Virus record (IMG/VR): IMGVR_UViG_3300020404_002380
Location: 1-20,277 of that record
DNA length: 20,277 nucleotides
From: a virus
Reading direction: 5' to 3' (one strand)
Part shown: positions 3,847 through 20,061 of the stretch, in pieces
How positions within the stretch are numbered: the first letter of the stretch is position 1
Layout: the number at the start of each line of letters is the position of its first letter
Program-made: the position numbers and the translations under genes
Notes under the pieces: model-generated
Told to the model about the DNA's origin: nothing
Databases searched by the model: none
The model's input: only the letters and a program-made list of their open reading frames with translations

Positions 3847-4842
3847 ATGTATGATGTTTATTATACAACTGGTGGTGGTCCTTGGGTAAACGCTGGAACT
3901 GATACATGGGTAAATTTATGGATGGAATTGATTGCACCTAAGTTAGATGTAAAACCAATTCTTTTAATTCATAGAACAAAACCAAAAGAATATGGAGATT
4001 ATGATTTTCCAATAGAAGCTCATTGGCATGGAGATGATATTGAATTTGCAGAAAACCTTTGTAAAAATGCAAGAAGAATAAATATATTACATGGTCATTA
4101 TACTCCAATGAAAATTCTTCAAGATAATAAAGATAAAATACATTCAAATATATTACATAATTCAGTTGACCATATTTTAAAATCACAACTAGGAACAGAT
4201 GCATCACTTGGTTGGCATCCTTATTTAGATTCAAGTTGGGAAAAACAAATAAACGAATGGGCAACTTATTCTATATGGATTGGAGTTTTTGATATTTTAT
4301 TTGAAAATAAAAATATACCTAACTTTTATGAGTTCAAACAAAACTTACCTTTATCAAAATCAAACACACTTGGATTCGCTTCAAGATGTGAAGGTAGAAA
4401 AAATCCACATTACTTAGACGGATTAAAATCTTTTATATTCACAAATTCTGTTGAATTTAGTAGAGTTTGGAAACAAGGTACTAAATTAGATACATCTAAA
4501 TCAAAAATATATCATTACAATTCTAAATTTAAAGATACCTTTTATAATATGGATTGGGGAATATCTCATTCAGCATTTACAAATGAACCATTTGGATATG
4601 GAATTTTTGAAGCAGTTGATTATGGTAAGTTGCCAATTTTACATAAAACATGGTGTACTGATTTTGAATATCCATATAGGGTTTCATCAAAAAAAGAATT
4701 TAATCATATTTATACTAAGTTAACAGAAACTCCTCATTCCGAAAGAAACAAGTGGTTCAAATTATTAAAAGAATTTATGATTAGTAATTACACGAACAAG
4801 AATAAGTGGATTGAAGATTTTCTTAATATTTATAATATATAG
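3847..4842 (+). CDS. GT-B glycosyltransferase (GT4-like) in fibre cluster
   Basis: A 331-aa protein. Residues 247-255 read E-P-F-G-Y-G-I-F-E, a clean EX7E motif of retaining GT-B glycosyltransferases, followed by AVDYGKLPIL, typical of the nucleotide-sugar-binding half. An N-terminal TTGGGPWVN (residues 7-15) fits the glycine-rich acceptor-side loop, and LGFASRCEGRKNPHYLDGL (175-193) fits the start of the C-terminal Rossmann half. It starts 3 nt after the upstream fibre stop with no clear Shine-Dalgarno, so translation is probably coupled. No signal peptide or membrane segment is seen, so it should act in the cytoplasm. From its position I infer glycosylation of a fibre or virion protein; modification of host surface glycans is the alternative. 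Fold and class are fairly sure; donor and acceptor are unknown. Confidence 0.8.
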   Translation: MYDVYYTTGGGPWVNAGTDTWVNLWMELIAPKLDVKPILLIHRTKPKEYGDYDFPIEAHWHGDDIEFAENLCKNARRINILHGHYTPMKILQDNKDKIHSNILHNSVDHILKSQLGTDASLGWHPYLDSSWEKQINEWATYSIWIGVFDILFENKNIPNFYEFKQNLPLSKSNTLGFASRCEGRKNPHYLDGLKSFIFTNSVEFSRVWKQGTKLDTSKSKIYHYNSKFKDTFYNMDWGISHSAFTNEPFGYGIFEAVDYGKLPILHKTWCTDFEYPYRVSSKKEFNHIYTKLTETPHSERNKWFKLLKEFMISNYTNKNKWIEDFLNIYNI

Positions 4843-4854
4843 GGAAAAATATAT

Positions 4855-6168
4855 ATGGCAACATTAAGTTCAGGAGATACTCTTTCATTAAATAATTTAG
4901 CGGGAGCAAATGGTGTAACACAAAACTCTAATGTATCACTAGGTACTATTAAAGGAGGTTCACCAAGTGGAGGTGATAATATTACTTTATCTTCATTTGC
5001 TGTAAATTCTATTGATTCAATGAGTGGATTTACATATGCAGTAGAAAGTACAACAGAAACATATACAATAGGTTCAACAGGAGGAGGTTCAAATTTCGGA
5101 ACACATAATGCAGTTTATAGTGGAAATGTAACTTGGACAATTCCAGTAGGTTCAAAAATATCATTAAATACTAATAGTGGATTATCTGCAACATTTGATG
5201 TAGCAGCAATGGATAATTCAGATGGAGTATTAGATACTCAAATAACACATACTATTAGAGGAGTTTTTGCAGATGGATATAACGACCACATTGGTTCAGC
5301 GAATGGATATGGTGTAAATAAAGATAAAACAGTTTATTCAATTGATACTTACGATGGTAACACAACAGGATTATGTTTAACATCAGATACACCAGTTACA
5401 TTAGATGATGGTTCAACGATTCCAATAGGAGATGTAGAAGAAGGAATGAAATTACAAGGATATTCTCTATATGGATTGGGAGATTTTGAAGATTCTGAAT
5501 ATATGCAATGGCGTTCTAATAATTTAAATGCAGAAAAGGTTGAAGTAGAAGTTGAAAATGCAATTTTTTCATTTGCAAGTAAATATTACGATATAAATTA
5601 TGGAGATGTAAAATGTACATCAGAACATCCTTTCCTAATATTAGAAGGTGGTGAATATAGATTTAAAAGAGCTCACTTATTAAATGAAGGAGATATTTTA
5701 ATAAAAGGTAATGATAATCTTACAGAAGAAGTAACGATTGAAAAAATTGAAGTTGTTGAAGAAGATGTAGAAATAGTATCTTTAGATGTATCAAATACAG
5801 ATACATATATAGCTAATGGTTATATAACACACAACAAAGGAACAAATTCACATACAGATTTTGATGGACCAACTGCACCAACAAGTGTATCATACTCACA
5901 TCCAAATTTATCATGGAGTGGAGGTACTGCAGATACTGATTCTGGTGGTATTACTGCTTATGATATTCAAGTAGATAATAATTCTAATTTTAGTTCACCA
6001 ATAATCGATGAAACTAATTGGAATGCAACAACAATGCAATTATCTGGTAATATTGCAGCTGGTACATATTATGCAAGAGTAAGAAACGTACAATCTGGTT
6101 TGAGGTCAGCTTATCAAACTGTTGGAGGTAATAATACTGCTATTACAGTAGCTTCATGGCCAGCATAA
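4855..6168 (+). CDS. Virion-cluster protein with Hint (intein-like) domain and FN3-like C-terminus
   Basis: A 437-aa protein in three parts. Residues 1-173 are Gly/Ser/Thr-rich and beta-like; they start MATLSSGDTLSLNNLAG, a style seen in small marine phage structural proteins. Residues 174-327 form a Hint fold: C174 opens block A (CLTSDTPVTLDDGS), block B carries the TxxH motif (T255, H258 in CTSEHPFLIL), and block F ends in Y-I-T-H326-N327. Residues 328-437 begin K-G-T and run into a fibronectin-III-like domain (GPTAPTSVSY, GGITAYDIQVD, GTYYARVRNV). The residue after HN is Lys, not Cys/Ser/Thr, so canonical splicing is unlikely. From Hint biochemistry I infer self-cleavage at one or both junctions, as in bacterial-intein-like domains. 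Its place between the fibre and tail genes suggests a virion part. The Hint call is strong; the role of the host protein is unknown. Confidence 0.82.
   Translation: MATLSSGDTLSLNNLAGANGVTQNSNVSLGTIKGGSPSGGDNITLSSFAVNSIDSMSGFTYAVESTTETYTIGSTGGGSNFGTHNAVYSGNVTWTIPVGSKISLNTNSGLSATFDVAAMDNSDGVLDTQITHTIRGVFADGYNDHIGSANGYGVNKDKTVYSIDTYDGNTTGLCLTSDTPVTLDDGSTIPIGDVEEGMKLQGYSLYGLGDFEDSEYMQWRSNNLNAEKVEVEVENAIFSFASKYYDINYGDVKCTSEHPFLILEGGEYRFKRAHLLNEGDILIKGNDNLTEEVTIEKIEVVEEDVEIVSLDVSNTDTYIANGYITHNKGTNSHTDFDGPTAPTSVSYSHPNLSWSGGTADTDSGGITAYDIQVDNNSNFSSPIIDETNWNATTMQLSGNIAAGTYYARVRNVQSGLRSAYQTVGGNNTAITVASWPA
5374..5835 (+). other. Hint / bacterial-intein-like domain, HN-Lys junction
   Basis: Codons for residues 174-327 of the protein at 4855-6168. 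First residue Cys (TGT, 5374-5376), block-B TxxH, and penultimate His plus terminal Asn are all present; the +1 residue is Lys. At 154 residues it is mini-intein sized. The middle (about residues 205-245) is too short for a homing endonuclease and shows no LAGLIDADG or HNH motif. Confidence 0.82.
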
Positions 6169-6236: not shown

Positions 6237-6533
6237 ATGGCAGAACAAATCAAGTTTACAGAAGAAGAAGTTTCACAAATAAATACCTTAAGACAAAACG
6301 TTGCTAACGTATTTACAAGATTAGGTCAACTACAAATCGAAAAGAAGAGAAGAGTTACTGAAATTGAAAATCTAGAAAAAGGTATTTTTGATGAACATCA
6401 ATCTTTAATAGAAGAAGAAAATAAACTTTTTCAAGGTTTAAATGAAAAATATGGTGATGGTAATTATGACCCAAATACCAATGAATTTATACCAGCAGAA
6501 AAAGAAACAGAAAATATTGAAGAGAGTAAATAG
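6237..6533 (+). CDS. Small coiled-coil protein upstream of tail sheath
   Basis: A 98-aa protein I cannot name. Residues 5-70 are predicted long helix and coiled coil from their heptad-like hydrophobics (INTLRQNVANVFTRLGQLQIE and on), with dense Lys/Glu. The tail is acidic and contains KYGDGNYDPNTNEFIP, then PAEKETENIEESK. Proteins of this shape, often with a KYGxG...F-P end, occur among structural genes of marine T4-like phages, but I know of no demonstrated role. The motif at 6191-6211 sits just upstream, so it may head a transcript that includes the sheath gene 80 nt downstream. There is no strong Shine-Dalgarno. A scaffold or core-type assembly role is only a guess from shape and neighbourhood. 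Confidence 0.7.
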   Translation: MAEQIKFTEEEVSQINTLRQNVANVFTRLGQLQIEKKRRVTEIENLEKGIFDEHQSLIEEENKLFQGLNEKYGDGNYDPNTNEFIPAEKETENIEESK

Positions 6534-6613: not shown

Positions 6614-8938
6614 ATGGCAGAAAAAATTGTATCACCTGGTGTATTTACGAGAGAAAACGACCTTTCTTTCTTATCACAAGGGATTGGTGAAATCGGAGCA
6701 GCAATAATTGGACCTTTCCACAAAGGACCTGCTTTCGTTCCAACCGTTGTTAATACACAATCAGAATTTGAAGAAAAATTTGGTACACCTGATGGTTCAT
6801 ACTATACAGGATATACCGTACAAAACTACCTAAGAGAAGCAGGAACAGTAACTATTGTTCGTGTAGGAAATATAGGTGGTTATACACAAACAGTTCCACT
6901 TGGTATTCAAGCAGGTGGAAAAATAGTTGGAACACTATTCGAAACTCATAATGGAAAAGGAACACTTGGAGGCTCAACTGCAACAAGTGCTTCTGCAGCA
7001 GCAGATGAATTGAATATTGATTTAACTGGTTCAGCAGTAGCTGTATCAGCATCTATTGACCCATCAGCTGGAAATGATTTAGAAAGTGTATTTGGAAGTA
7101 ACCCAAGAGGAAGTAAAGATGCATATGTTTACAATTACTTCGAAAGTACTGCGGCAAGTGCTTCAGCAGCAACACATGATGATATCCAAATTGTAGAACT
7201 AAGTGATAATGTTTTTGCAAACGATATTCAACACGCAACTACTCCTTATATACAATCACAGTTGATTTCTGGTGAAAGACATGACTTATTTAGATTCCAC
7301 ACTTTAGGTGATGGTACTAACTATAATAAAGAATACAAAATTGGTATTTTTAACGTAAAAGCAGCAGGTTCTTCGAACTCTACTGATTATGCAACATTCT
7401 CAGTTGTAGTTAGAAAATATAGTGATATAAATAAAAGAAGTAGTGTACTTGAAACGTTCAATAACTTGAACTTAGACCCTGCATCTCCAAACTATATCAA
7501 AAAAGTAATTGGTGATAGAAACCTTACAATCGATGCTAATGGAAAACAAACAGAAAATGGTGATTACCCTAACTACTCAAACTTTATTAGAGTAGAGTGT
7601 AGTGAAGAGGGTTCATTCCCAATAACTGCGGCACCATTTGGACATGGAGCTTATACTAATCCAATTTTCCTTGGAAGTAGTGAATCTAGAGTACCTGCAG
7701 TAATATTTGCGACAGGTTCAGAAAACAACACAGCATCTAATTCAGTACAATATAGTGGTATTGATTTAGAAACTGCACAAGTTAAAATTAATAATAACAA
7801 TTATCTAGCTCCAATCCCAAGTAGTGCAACTACTGGTGGAAACACTGCTTTTGCATTCGATGCAGCATTTACTGCAATCGTTGGAGGAGTTCTTTCAACT
7901 AAAAACTTTGGATATACAATATCTACATCAGATAGTACTTCAGATATTAACAAGAGACAGTTTATCGTTGGATTCCAAAGTGGATTTGATGGTGCTAACC
8001 CAACAGTAAAAGAAGCTAAATATGGTGATGCTGATTGGGGTGCTGGTAACTCTCAAGGATTTAACTTATCTAGTTCAACTGCAAGTGGTTCAGTTGCTTA
8101 TGTAAAAGCAATTAACGCAGTATCTAATCCAGATGATTTTGATATCAACTTGGTATCTACACCTGGTGTTGTAAGAAGATTACATTCTTATGTATTTGAT
8201 AAAGTAGTTGATATGGTAGAAGCTAGAGAAGATGCATTCTTTATTGGTGATGCAACTGATGGAGCAGATACAATAGCTCAAGCAGTTACTCAAGGTGAAG
8301 CAGTAGATTCTAACTATGTTGGTGTTTACTACCCATGGGTTAAAACAATAGATAGAAATACAAACAAACTTACTGCAGTTCCACCATCAGTATTGATGCC
8401 TGGAATTTATGCTGCTAATGATGCAGTTGCAGCTGAGTGGTTTGCACCTGCTGGATTGAACAGAGGTGGTATCGTGGGAGCGGTTAGTGTATTAAATAGA
8501 TTAACTCACTCAGAAAGAGATACATTATATGAAGGAAAGATTAATCCAATTGCTCAGTTCCCTGGCGAAGGTATTGTAGCGTTTGGACAAAAAACTTTAC
8601 AAGATAAGGCATCTGCTTTAGATAGAATCAACGTAAGAAGATTAATGATTAAAGTTAAGAAGTATATTGCTTCAACTTCAAGATACTTAGTATTCGAACA
8701 AAACACTTCTCAAACAAGAAGTAGATTCTTAAATACTGTGAATCCTTATTTAGAAGGAATACAACAAAGACAAGGACTATATGCATTTAGAGTGGTGATG
8801 GATGAATCAAACAACACACCTGATGTAATCGACAGAAACATATTGGCTGGGGCAATTTACCTACAACCAACGAAAACTGCTGAATTCATCGTGTTAGATT
8901 TCAATATATTACCGACTGGAGCATCGTTCTCGGCATAA
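6614..8938 (+). CDS. Contractile tail sheath protein (gp18-like)
   Basis: A 774-aa protein, longer than T4 gp18 (659 aa). The N-terminus reads VSPGVFTRENDLSF and then AAIIGPFHKGPAF, the typical start of contractile sheath subunits. The C-terminal ~160 residues (about 612-774) carry the sheath core: GGIVGAV, then INPIAQFPGEGIVAFGQKTL, then INVRRLMIKVKKYIASTSRYLVFE, with the conserved end LAGAIYLQPTKTAEFIVLDF. The middle (about 110-480) is Ser/Thr/Asn-rich and variable, as expected for surface-exposed sheath domains, and explains the extra length. A good Shine-Dalgarno, AAGGAG (6600-6605), sits 8 nt before the ATG. The tube gene follows after 58 nt. Subunits stack around the tube and contract on infection. 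The call is very secure. Confidence 0.96.
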   Translation: MAEKIVSPGVFTRENDLSFLSQGIGEIGAAIIGPFHKGPAFVPTVVNTQSEFEEKFGTPDGSYYTGYTVQNYLREAGTVTIVRVGNIGGYTQTVPLGIQAGGKIVGTLFETHNGKGTLGGSTATSASAAADELNIDLTGSAVAVSASIDPSAGNDLESVFGSNPRGSKDAYVYNYFESTAASASAATHDDIQIVELSDNVFANDIQHATTPYIQSQLISGERHDLFRFHTLGDGTNYNKEYKIGIFNVKAAGSSNSTDYATFSVVVRKYSDINKRSSVLETFNNLNLDPASPNYIKKVIGDRNLTIDANGKQTENGDYPNYSNFIRVECSEEGSFPITAAPFGHGAYTNPIFLGSSESRVPAVIFATGSENNTASNSVQYSGIDLETAQVKINNNNYLAPIPSSATTGGNTAFAFDAAFTAIVGGVLSTKNFGYTISTSDSTSDINKRQFIVGFQSGFDGANPTVKEAKYGDADWGAGNSQGFNLSSSTASGSVAYVKAINAVSNPDDFDINLVSTPGVVRRLHSYVFDKVVDMVEAREDAFFIGDATDGADTIAQAVTQGEAVDSNYVGVYYPWVKTIDRNTNKLTAVPPSVLMPGIYAANDAVAAEWFAPAGLNRGGIVGAVSVLNRLTHSERDTLYEGKINPIAQFPGEGIVAFGQKTLQDKASALDRINVRRLMIKVKKYIASTSRYLVFEQNTSQTRSRFLNTVNPYLEGIQQRQGLYAFRVVMDESNNTPDVIDRNILAGAIYLQPTKTAEFIVLDFNILPTGASFSA

Positions 8939-18855: not shown

Positions 18856-19623
18856 ATGAATTATCTTACAGAAGAAGAAAAACAACAATTACTTTTTGAT
18901 TGGAGATACAAAGGATTTTCTACAATAGAATTACTTAGTGAAGAAGAATGTGATGAATTGAATGAAGAATTAGAAAAACTTCGTAAGCAAAGACAAGAAA
19001 CTACAAAAGAAGATGGTAGTGAATGGGGAGATTATGACCCATTTATGTATCCACACAAATTATCAGAAAAATTTGAAAAAATATTTTCTCATCCTAAAAT
19101 TATAGAAGCAACAGAATTTTTACTAAATGGTAAAATAAGTGGAACACAAACTTGGTGTTATTTCAAACCACCAGGTCAATTAGGTAGAGATATGCATCAA
19201 AATGCATTTTATACAGGATGTAAACATAATGAATATTTAAACATTACTGTTGCACTAGATAATCACGATAAAGAAAATGGTGCAGTATGGAATTATGAAG
19301 GTACACATAGATTAGGTTTACTACCAATTGAAATAGATGAAGAAAGGGTAAAAACAAATCCTAAAAATTGGTCTAATGAAAGAGGTAAACCTTGTGTAAT
19401 GCCTGAAGGACATGATTTCAAAAAGGTAGAAGGTACTACTAAAAAAGGTAATGTAGTTTTATTACACTCCCATACCGTTCATGGTTCAGAAACAAATCAT
19501 TCAAATAGATTTAGAAGAAGTTTTTTAGCAGGTTATGCACTAGAAGGAACTGATTTTAAAAAAGGTGGACACATGAAAAGAGAACCAATTGATATATACA
19601 CTATGTATAAAAAATATTGGTAA
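18856..19623 (+). CDS. Phytanoyl-CoA dioxygenase (PhyH)-like protein with HQN metal motif
   Basis: A 255-aa protein. The layout is that of PhyH-type Fe(II)/2-oxoglutarate oxygenases: GFSTIELLSEEECDELNEEL (20-39) at the start, TQTWCYFKPPGQLGRDMHQN (97-116) around the proximal metal site, NITVALDNHDKENGAVWNYE and GTHRLGLLP (129-157), and a distal site KKGNVVLLHSHTVHGSETNH with NRFRRSF (H209 as expected iron ligand; R220/R221 near the 2-oxoglutarate carboxylate). The proximal H114-x-[D/E] is H114-Q115-N116, so the usual carboxylate ligand is Asn; the codon AAT at 19201-19203 is unambiguous. It may be inactive, metal-altered or halogenase-like, or the Asn may be normal in this subgroup. It lies outside the structural operon with its own candidate promoter. 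PhyH-like genes are common auxiliary genes in marine phages; the substrate is unknown. Confidence 0.85.
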   Translation: MNYLTEEEKQQLLFDWRYKGFSTIELLSEEECDELNEELEKLRKQRQETTKEDGSEWGDYDPFMYPHKLSEKFEKIFSHPKIIEATEFLLNGKISGTQTWCYFKPPGQLGRDMHQNAFYTGCKHNEYLNITVALDNHDKENGAVWNYEGTHRLGLLPIEIDEERVKTNPKNWSNERGKPCVMPEGHDFKKVEGTTKKGNVVLLHSHTVHGSETNHSNRFRRSFLAGYALEGTDFKKGGHMKREPIDIYTMYKKYW

Positions 19624-19662: not shown

Positions 19663-20061
19663 ATGATTAAAAAATACCCTAAACAATTTAATAAAGTTTC
19701 AAATTACCTCAAAGAGAAATTTGGAATAGATGTATTACTTGGACAAATTACTGCATTTATGGGAAGTAAAAACAAAAAGATTTTTATACACCATAATCAT
19801 AATTTAGAAAAAAATGGTTTATATGCTCTTTTACATGAAGTAGGTCATGTTCTTCAGAATGATAAAGATAACCATTTTAAAACCATAGATGAAGATAAAG
19901 AACCCAAAAAGTTCAAATTTTATCAATACCTTAATGAAATAGATGCTTGGAAAAAAGGTCTATTATTTGCTAATAAACTTGGTATTTCTGTTAATAAACA
20001 AGATTGGGTTAAGGTACAAAATGAATCCCTCCTCACTTATTCAAAAAAAATAGCAAAATAA
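19663..20061 (+). CDS. Minimal HExxH zinc metallopeptidase-like protein
   Basis: A 132-aa protein. H58-E59-V60-G61-H62 within LLHEVGHVLQ is a canonical zincin motif on a hydrophobic helix. NEIDAWKKGLLFANKLGI (91-108) follows after 29 residues, and E92 is a good candidate third zinc ligand, the gluzincin arrangement also used by ImmA/M78-like peptidases. IFIHHNHNLEKNGLYA (40-55) precedes the helix as the edge strand and loop. There is no signal peptide, so it would act in the host cytoplasm. The small size matches minigluzincin-type peptidases found in mobile elements. It lies alone after the dioxygenase with no Shine-Dalgarno. I infer cleavage of a host or phage regulator, but the substrate is unknown and activity is unproven. 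Confidence 0.8.
   Translation: MIKKYPKQFNKVSNYLKEKFGIDVLLGQITAFMGSKNKKIFIHHNHNLEKNGLYALLHEVGHVLQNDKDNHFKTIDEDKEPKKFKFYQYLNEIDAWKKGLLFANKLGISVNKQDWVKVQNESLLTYSKKIAK

Follow-up and report, generated by a model that had tools for sequence, protein, structure and literature searches.

Bacterial intein-like (BIL) domains of type A form a thioester at their N-terminal junction and resolve their C-terminal junction by Asn cyclization, with a minor joined product arising by amine attack (PMC4031507). The settings described for them are variable stretches of bacterial proteins that are not conserved (PMC7765530). In the BIL2 domain of Tetrahymena thermophila BUBL1 (PDB 6TMM, 6Y75), splicing is reported to yield an isopeptide bond to the side chain of a lysine, and the N-terminal flank to become conjugated to other proteins (PMC8616854). 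Here we analyze a Hint domain encoded in the tail region of an uncultured phage, in which the first residue after the domain (+1) is lysine, together with further phage Hints followed by the same residue. Hints without Cys, Ser or Thr at +1 have hitherto been treated as weakened inteins.

Like BIL2, the phage Hint sits between two independently folded domains. BIL2 belongs to a eukaryotic polyubiquitin locus, however, and is activated by zinc via H48 and H125; by sequence, the only invariant His residues of the phage family are H258 and H326. With type A BILs such as that of C. thermocellum (PDB 2lwy), the phage domain shares the Hint fold, an N-terminal Cys, a C-terminal His-Asn and the lack of Cys, Ser or Thr at +1 (PMC4031507), and it differs from them in its fixed Lys, its single host protein and its conserved gene order. 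Class 1 (mini-)inteins of phages have blocks A, B and G and TIGR01445 in common with it; they carry Cys, Ser or Thr at +1, are inserted in conserved enzymes and have empty alleles, whereas the phage family has Lys and no empty allele. Phage NCTB (LT598654), which has an annotated tail protein with an intein domain, likewise carries Hints in an aquatic phage's tail gene cluster. A self-removing domain is also known from phage tail fibers, the S74 intramolecular chaperone; it shares with the phage Hint the self-removal on tail proteins that we propose below, but domain and chemistry are unrelated.

Results

A Hint-containing gene in a phage tail module

The 20,277-base window, by which we mean the whole stretch of DNA analyzed, is a complete IMG/VR virus record from an uncultured phage with a contractile tail and holds its tail module. 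A tail fiber with a C-terminal S74 chaperone domain and a second fiber-like protein are followed by a 331-aa protein (3847-4842), the 437-aa protein under study (4855-6168), a 98-aa protein (6237-6533), the tail sheath (6614-8938; phrog_23, E = 2.2e-72), the tail tube and a T4-type baseplate protein; the four genes with coordinates here, and all features of the 437-aa protein, lie on the + strand. The tail sheath beside the gene identifies the setting as a tail module, and the virion cluster proposed in a preliminary description of this DNA is borne out by the S74 fiber upstream and the sheath and tube downstream. Across 137 loci, the 331-aa upstream neighbor, which has no Pfam or PHROG match and looks glycosyltransferase-like by eye, is present at 110, the 98-aa protein at 134 and the sheath at 133. 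The order of the neighbors is identical wherever listed, the remaining loci being limited by contig or locus ends.

The S74 fiber (324-2108) represents a second type of self-cleaving domain in the cluster. The tail module closes with a PhyH-type dioxygenase (18856-19623; Pfam PF05721, E = 3.6e-21), and a 132-aa protein (19663-20061) has an HEVGH motif and a weak match, under the cut-off, to DUF6782, a putative metallopeptidase (E = 0.0069). No further Hint was found within the window, and Rfam and tRNA scans of its whole length returned nothing.

Build of the 437-aa protein

The N-part, or N-extein (residues 1-173; 4855-5373), is beta-rich, ends at L173 and has a pLDDT of 87.8 in an AlphaFold2 model. 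Against PDB folds it gave just unspecific Ig- or cadherin-like matches, none at E ≤ 1e-3, and a search in cultured phages gave zero matches. The Hint domain (residues 174-327; 5374-5835), recognized by Pfam, TIGR01445, Foldseek and a profile search of PDB sequences, opens with the block A nucleophile C174 (5374-5376), contains T255-S-E-H258 as block B (5617-5628) and closes with H326-N327 as block G (5830-5835), after which K328 (5836-5838) occupies +1. A linker and an FN3-like domain make up the C-part, or C-extein (residues 328-437, 110 aa; 5836-6165), in which Pfam fn3 was matched in 12 of 26 relatives and for which cultured phages returned weak FN3 matches alone. The catalytic residues, the 173-aa and 110-aa flanks and the FN3-like C-part had all been read from the sequence in the preliminary description; residues and flanks were confirmed on this ORF, and the FN3 nature of the C-part is supported by the Pfam matches.

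AlphaFold2, supplied with 26 relatives, predicts three folded domains with a mean pLDDT of 80.8; as pTM is only 0.45, their mutual arrangement is unsure. In the model, pLDDT drops below 50 at residues 166-170 and in the linker at 330-336, adjoining both junctions.

A Hint domain of BIL kind

TIGR01445 (intein_Nterm) scores the 437-aa protein at 27.5 bits, above its cut-off of 24.5 (E = 4.7e-6). Pfam Intein_splicing matches it at E = 8.9e-7, under the Pfam cut-off, and is matched in 21 of 26 relatives. By Foldseek, the top match for the Hint is the BIL2 domain of T. thermophila BUBL1 (E = 4.9e-9), and the C. thermocellum BIL is also near (PDB 2lwy; TM 0.85, normalized to the target). The placement by BIL2 is the same when PDB sequences are searched with a profile. 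With TIGR01445 over its cut-off and BIL2 as the top fold match, the Hint signal is far above chance.

The fold of the Hint superfamily is present, with its Cys in block A and its TxxH in block B. As in type A BILs, the domain ends in His-Asn (96/96 relatives) followed by a residue other than Cys, Ser or Thr (Lys, 96/96). The variable regions and non-conserved proteins that describe type A BILs, without defining them, are not its setting: host protein and gene order are fixed across the 137 loci. Three other assignments were rejected. A class 1 intein would have Cys, Ser or Thr at +1 and a sporadic distribution; here +1 is Lys in 96/96 and the Hint is in every full-length relative. Class 3 inteins lack Cys or Ser at Hint position 1 and use a block F Cys as nucleophile, whereas C174 is invariant in this family and the block F position is D311 (Asp in 91, Asn in 5 of 96). 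Hedgehog-type Hints (Hog) are C-terminal Hints without a His-Asn end, in which sterol resolves the thioester via a sterol-recognition region; here His-Asn is invariant, an FN3-like domain follows and there is no sterol region.

The domain is fixed and constrained in its family

IMG/VR scans based on the full-length chain, on either flank by itself and on the Hint yielded 96 distinct full-length relatives, all built as N-part, Hint and FN3, and seven incomplete ones, each starting at a contig end. Though Hint identity among relatives falls to 41%, L173, C174, T255, H258, P259, T325, H326, N327 and K328 are, among others, invariant in 96/96; K328 is encoded by AAA in 89 relatives and AAG in 7. 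No relative has thus lost C174, H326 or N327, whose absence from relatives would have told against the preliminary description by its own account, nor has any lost H258 or K328. The C-part scan pattern contains THNKG and therefore favors Lys; the N-part scan and the Hint scan, the latter with patterns outside HNK, lack that bias.

When the protein is divided into 44 ten-residue blocks, entropy is lowest at 321-330 (0.20) and 161-170 (0.36), both at junctions. Median dN/dS, from pairs at 80-97% protein identity, is 0.197 for the N-part, 0.131 for the Hint and 0.179 for the C-part, which makes the Hint the most constrained of the three. Neither a Hint-less allele nor an empty site was found in IMG/VR by N-part and C-part searches, including those with the N-part alone, and no endonuclease was found. 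Because it is always present, with gene order kept, no endonuclease, the lowest dN/dS and invariant catalytic residues, the Hint is very probably a resident of this tail-region protein, kept under selection and not selfish, as had been suggested for it as a BIL-like domain. Cellular genomes gave four weak matches; in the frames inspected, an HN motif is present in L181 alone (HNS), and the rest have no readable block G.

Lysine at +1 recurs in a second lineage of phage Hints

A scan for DTYxxNG[YF]xxHN that left +1 free gave Lys in 115 of 115 reading frames among the matches listed (here and below, such counts describe samples that include related contigs, not frequencies). Four of these 115 frames are other proteins, which end directly after HNK (HNK-stop). 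When NG[YF]xVHN was followed by one free codon and a stop, 15 matches were listed, 14 with Lys and one with Cys. With nothing fixed after NGFVVHN, 118 frames were listed (Cys 42, Ser 42, Thr 21, Lys 7, others 6); those with Cys, Ser or Thr are mainly inteins, some not being Hints, and six of the seven Lys frames are HNK-stop proteins, the seventh being without block B. Ordinary viral inteins in the same collection have Cys, Ser or Thr at +1. Relatives were then fetched with an alignment of HNK-stop Hints trimmed ahead of HNK: among 43 distinct proteins listed at E ≤ 1e-20, the junction is visible in 42, and it carries Lys in all 42. Of these listed relatives, 37 stop exactly at HNK, one is cut by a contig end and five continue past HNK (L456, L465, L468, L479 and L490). 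In the sequences at hand, +1 is locked to Lys just as that of inteins is locked to Cys, Ser or Thr.

The N-parts of HNK-stop proteins match phrog_32 (lambda gpI-type tail assembly), phrog_2048 (a tail protein family), DUF4815/phrog_358 or phrog_10938 (a virion structural family), and some match nothing; a Gly/Ser-rich stretch often precedes the Hint at the C-terminal end. These proteins suggest that Lys-ended Hints may be a widespread phage means to trim or weld tail proteins. Among the matches inspected in cultured phages there were no HNK-stop relatives: HNK-stop Hints matched ordinary inteins (for example L504, HNC) and a pretoxin-type Hint with Ala at +1 (L505).

Individual loci show a range of arrangements. 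L225, L438, L429, L446 and others combine a phrog_32 gpI-like part, a Gly/Ser-rich linker and a C-terminal Hint with HNK-stop. At L479 (2874-4823), the Hint is at the extreme N-terminus (MGKLS-Hint-KGGGG) of a protein that, by eye, resembles gpJ-type tail tip proteins, and the N-extein would be five residues. A 956-aa protein at L468 (1488-4355) carries a tandem pair of Hints, spaced by about 180 residues, each of which ends in HNKSIPEPPP. L500 (G004:C1:20000-25000), from a 276-kb phage record that also carries a gene of the window family, has a 765-aa frame with an HN-Ala motif, an HN-Arg Hint and then an HNK-stop Hint. A 333-aa frame at L301 offers a natural comparison: its C-terminal Hint has Cys as a one-residue C-extein (HNC-stop).

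Hints without lysine at +1

Among cultured phages, the window Hint matched just ordinary inteins and phage NCTB. Three Hint proteins lie close together in the NCTB tail-protein cluster (L299, 7966-15225). Two of them, SBV38305 and SBV38301, have Ala at +1, and SBV38304, a stand-alone 153-aa Hint, ends VHNKVD. Ala at +1 also occurs in L501 and in a Ruminococcus phage Hint, and Arg, which is likewise positively charged, turned up a single time, in a Hint that is more distant. A tree built from 72 Hints gathers the window family in a single clade (99/98) separate from the HNK-stop Hints, with the two HN-Ala Hints of phage NCTB beside it, a placement that long branches make unsure. This tree shows no single origin of Lys at +1, which, given the long branches, may have arisen once or several times.

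Discussion

We favor, with a probability of roughly one half (about 0.52), a reading in which a resident Hint of BIL kind uses Lys at +1 in place of the absent Cys, Ser or Thr, so that the Hint would be excised and the N-part joined to the Lys-FN3 part. Lys-mediated joining, taken by itself, we regard as evenly balanced, and we infer excision, ligation and the type of bond alike from sequence. C174, aided by T255 and H258, would convert the L173-C174 bond to a thioester. The amine of K328 would accept the N-part, with the side chain favored and the main-chain amine possible, and N327, aided by H326, would cyclize to release the Hint. The product would be the N-part carried on the Lys-FN3 part; attack by the side chain would make the link an isopeptide bond, as is reported for BIL2. 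In HNK-stop proteins, identical steps would trim off the Hint, and the tail protein would then end in one Lys.

The preliminary description had considered the nucleophile for ligation to be missing. There is indeed no Cys, Ser or Thr at +1, but Lys is fixed there in 96/96; because it varies no more than the catalytic Cys, His and Asn and is found again in a second lineage of Hints, there mostly as the last residue of the chain, it appears to be more than a missing nucleophile, and excision with transfer to Lys is favored over simple cutting. Such cutting, close to what the preliminary description had proposed, would proceed by thioester hydrolysis and Asn cyclization and divide the protein into its N-part, Hint and FN3, which would remain associated or separate in the course of assembly, with Lys aiding cyclization or positioning. 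It has a precedent in type A BILs, which end in His-Asn, have no nucleophile at +1 and mostly cleave (PMC4031507), and the linkers that the model predicts to be flexible between folded domains adjoin the junctions. We nevertheless judge cleavage alone unlikely, as it leaves unexplained the Lys-only +1 of both lineages and the retention of H-N-K where one residue follows the Hint. There, Asn cyclization alone would free a single amino acid, so that the kept H-N-K seems best explained by Lys receiving the N-part. The N-part thioester might instead be resolved in trans, by a lysine on a different virion protein or on a second copy of the chain, which would cross-link the tail. BIL2, which conjugates ubl4 to other proteins (PMC8616854), is a precedent, and the tail module is a setting in keeping with it; with no partner visible, and with an invariant local Lys and H-N-K pointing to the chain's own Lys as the acceptor, this appears quite unlikely.

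Joining through the main chain, in which the K328 alpha-amine would attack the thioester after cyclization and form an ordinary Leu-Lys bond, is the mechanism proposed for type A BILs (PMC4031507). Any residue would serve for it, yet Lys alone is found in both lineages and other phage BIL-like Hints do have Ala or Arg, so that it would be surprising if Lys had been kept for some other reason; as this mechanism would not need Lys, the side-chain amine is the likelier acceptor. An inert or purely structural Hint that has lost its chemistry is hard to reconcile with catalytic residues that stay invariant at such low Hint identity, or with junctions that are the most constrained stretches, and we give it very little weight. 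Equally little credence is due to an ordinary mobile intein in decay after loss of the nucleophile at +1: intein-type profiles do match, but the Hint is in every relative, an empty site is absent even from the N-part-alone search, there is no endonuclease, purifying selection is the strongest of the three parts and Lys is invariant instead of drifting. Some points do count against Lys as the acceptor. At neutral pH and without suppression of its charge, Lys attacks less well than Cys, and it could serve Asn cyclization or positioning; type A BILs, moreover, can join via the main-chain amine with any residue at +1, and mostly cleave (PMC4031507).

An aid to folding or assembly that is later discarded would fit both lineages, as a Hint removed after folding in the window family, where joining would leave a protein of two domains, or as a self-removing tail in HNK-stop proteins. 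The unrelated S74 domain, present on the neighboring fiber, is known to fill such a role on tail fibers. The fold, the superfamily and the chemical precedent of BIL2 are already known; we found no description of phage tail proteins that bear a class of Hints locked to Lys, and a literature search in which subscription journals were poorly covered returned no description of phage Hints with Lys at +1. As at least two lineages of phage Hints have +1 locked to Lys, and the virion proteins that carry them are of several unrelated kinds, the lysine probably has a job. More tentatively, these domains may form a widespread class of phage Hints with a chemistry of its own, in which Lys at +1 is the acceptor and a maturation step built into the chain welds tail proteins by an isopeptide bond or trims them to a C-terminal Lys, across many unrelated kinds (the window family, lambda gpI-like proteins, DUF4815 and other virion proteins). 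If the lysine does have a job, lysine-mediated splicing would be no Tetrahymena curiosity, protein engineering could draw on these Hints for compact, naturally occurring domains that direct ligation to lysine, and phage tail maturation would make use of ATP-free, self-contained protein ligation or trimming.
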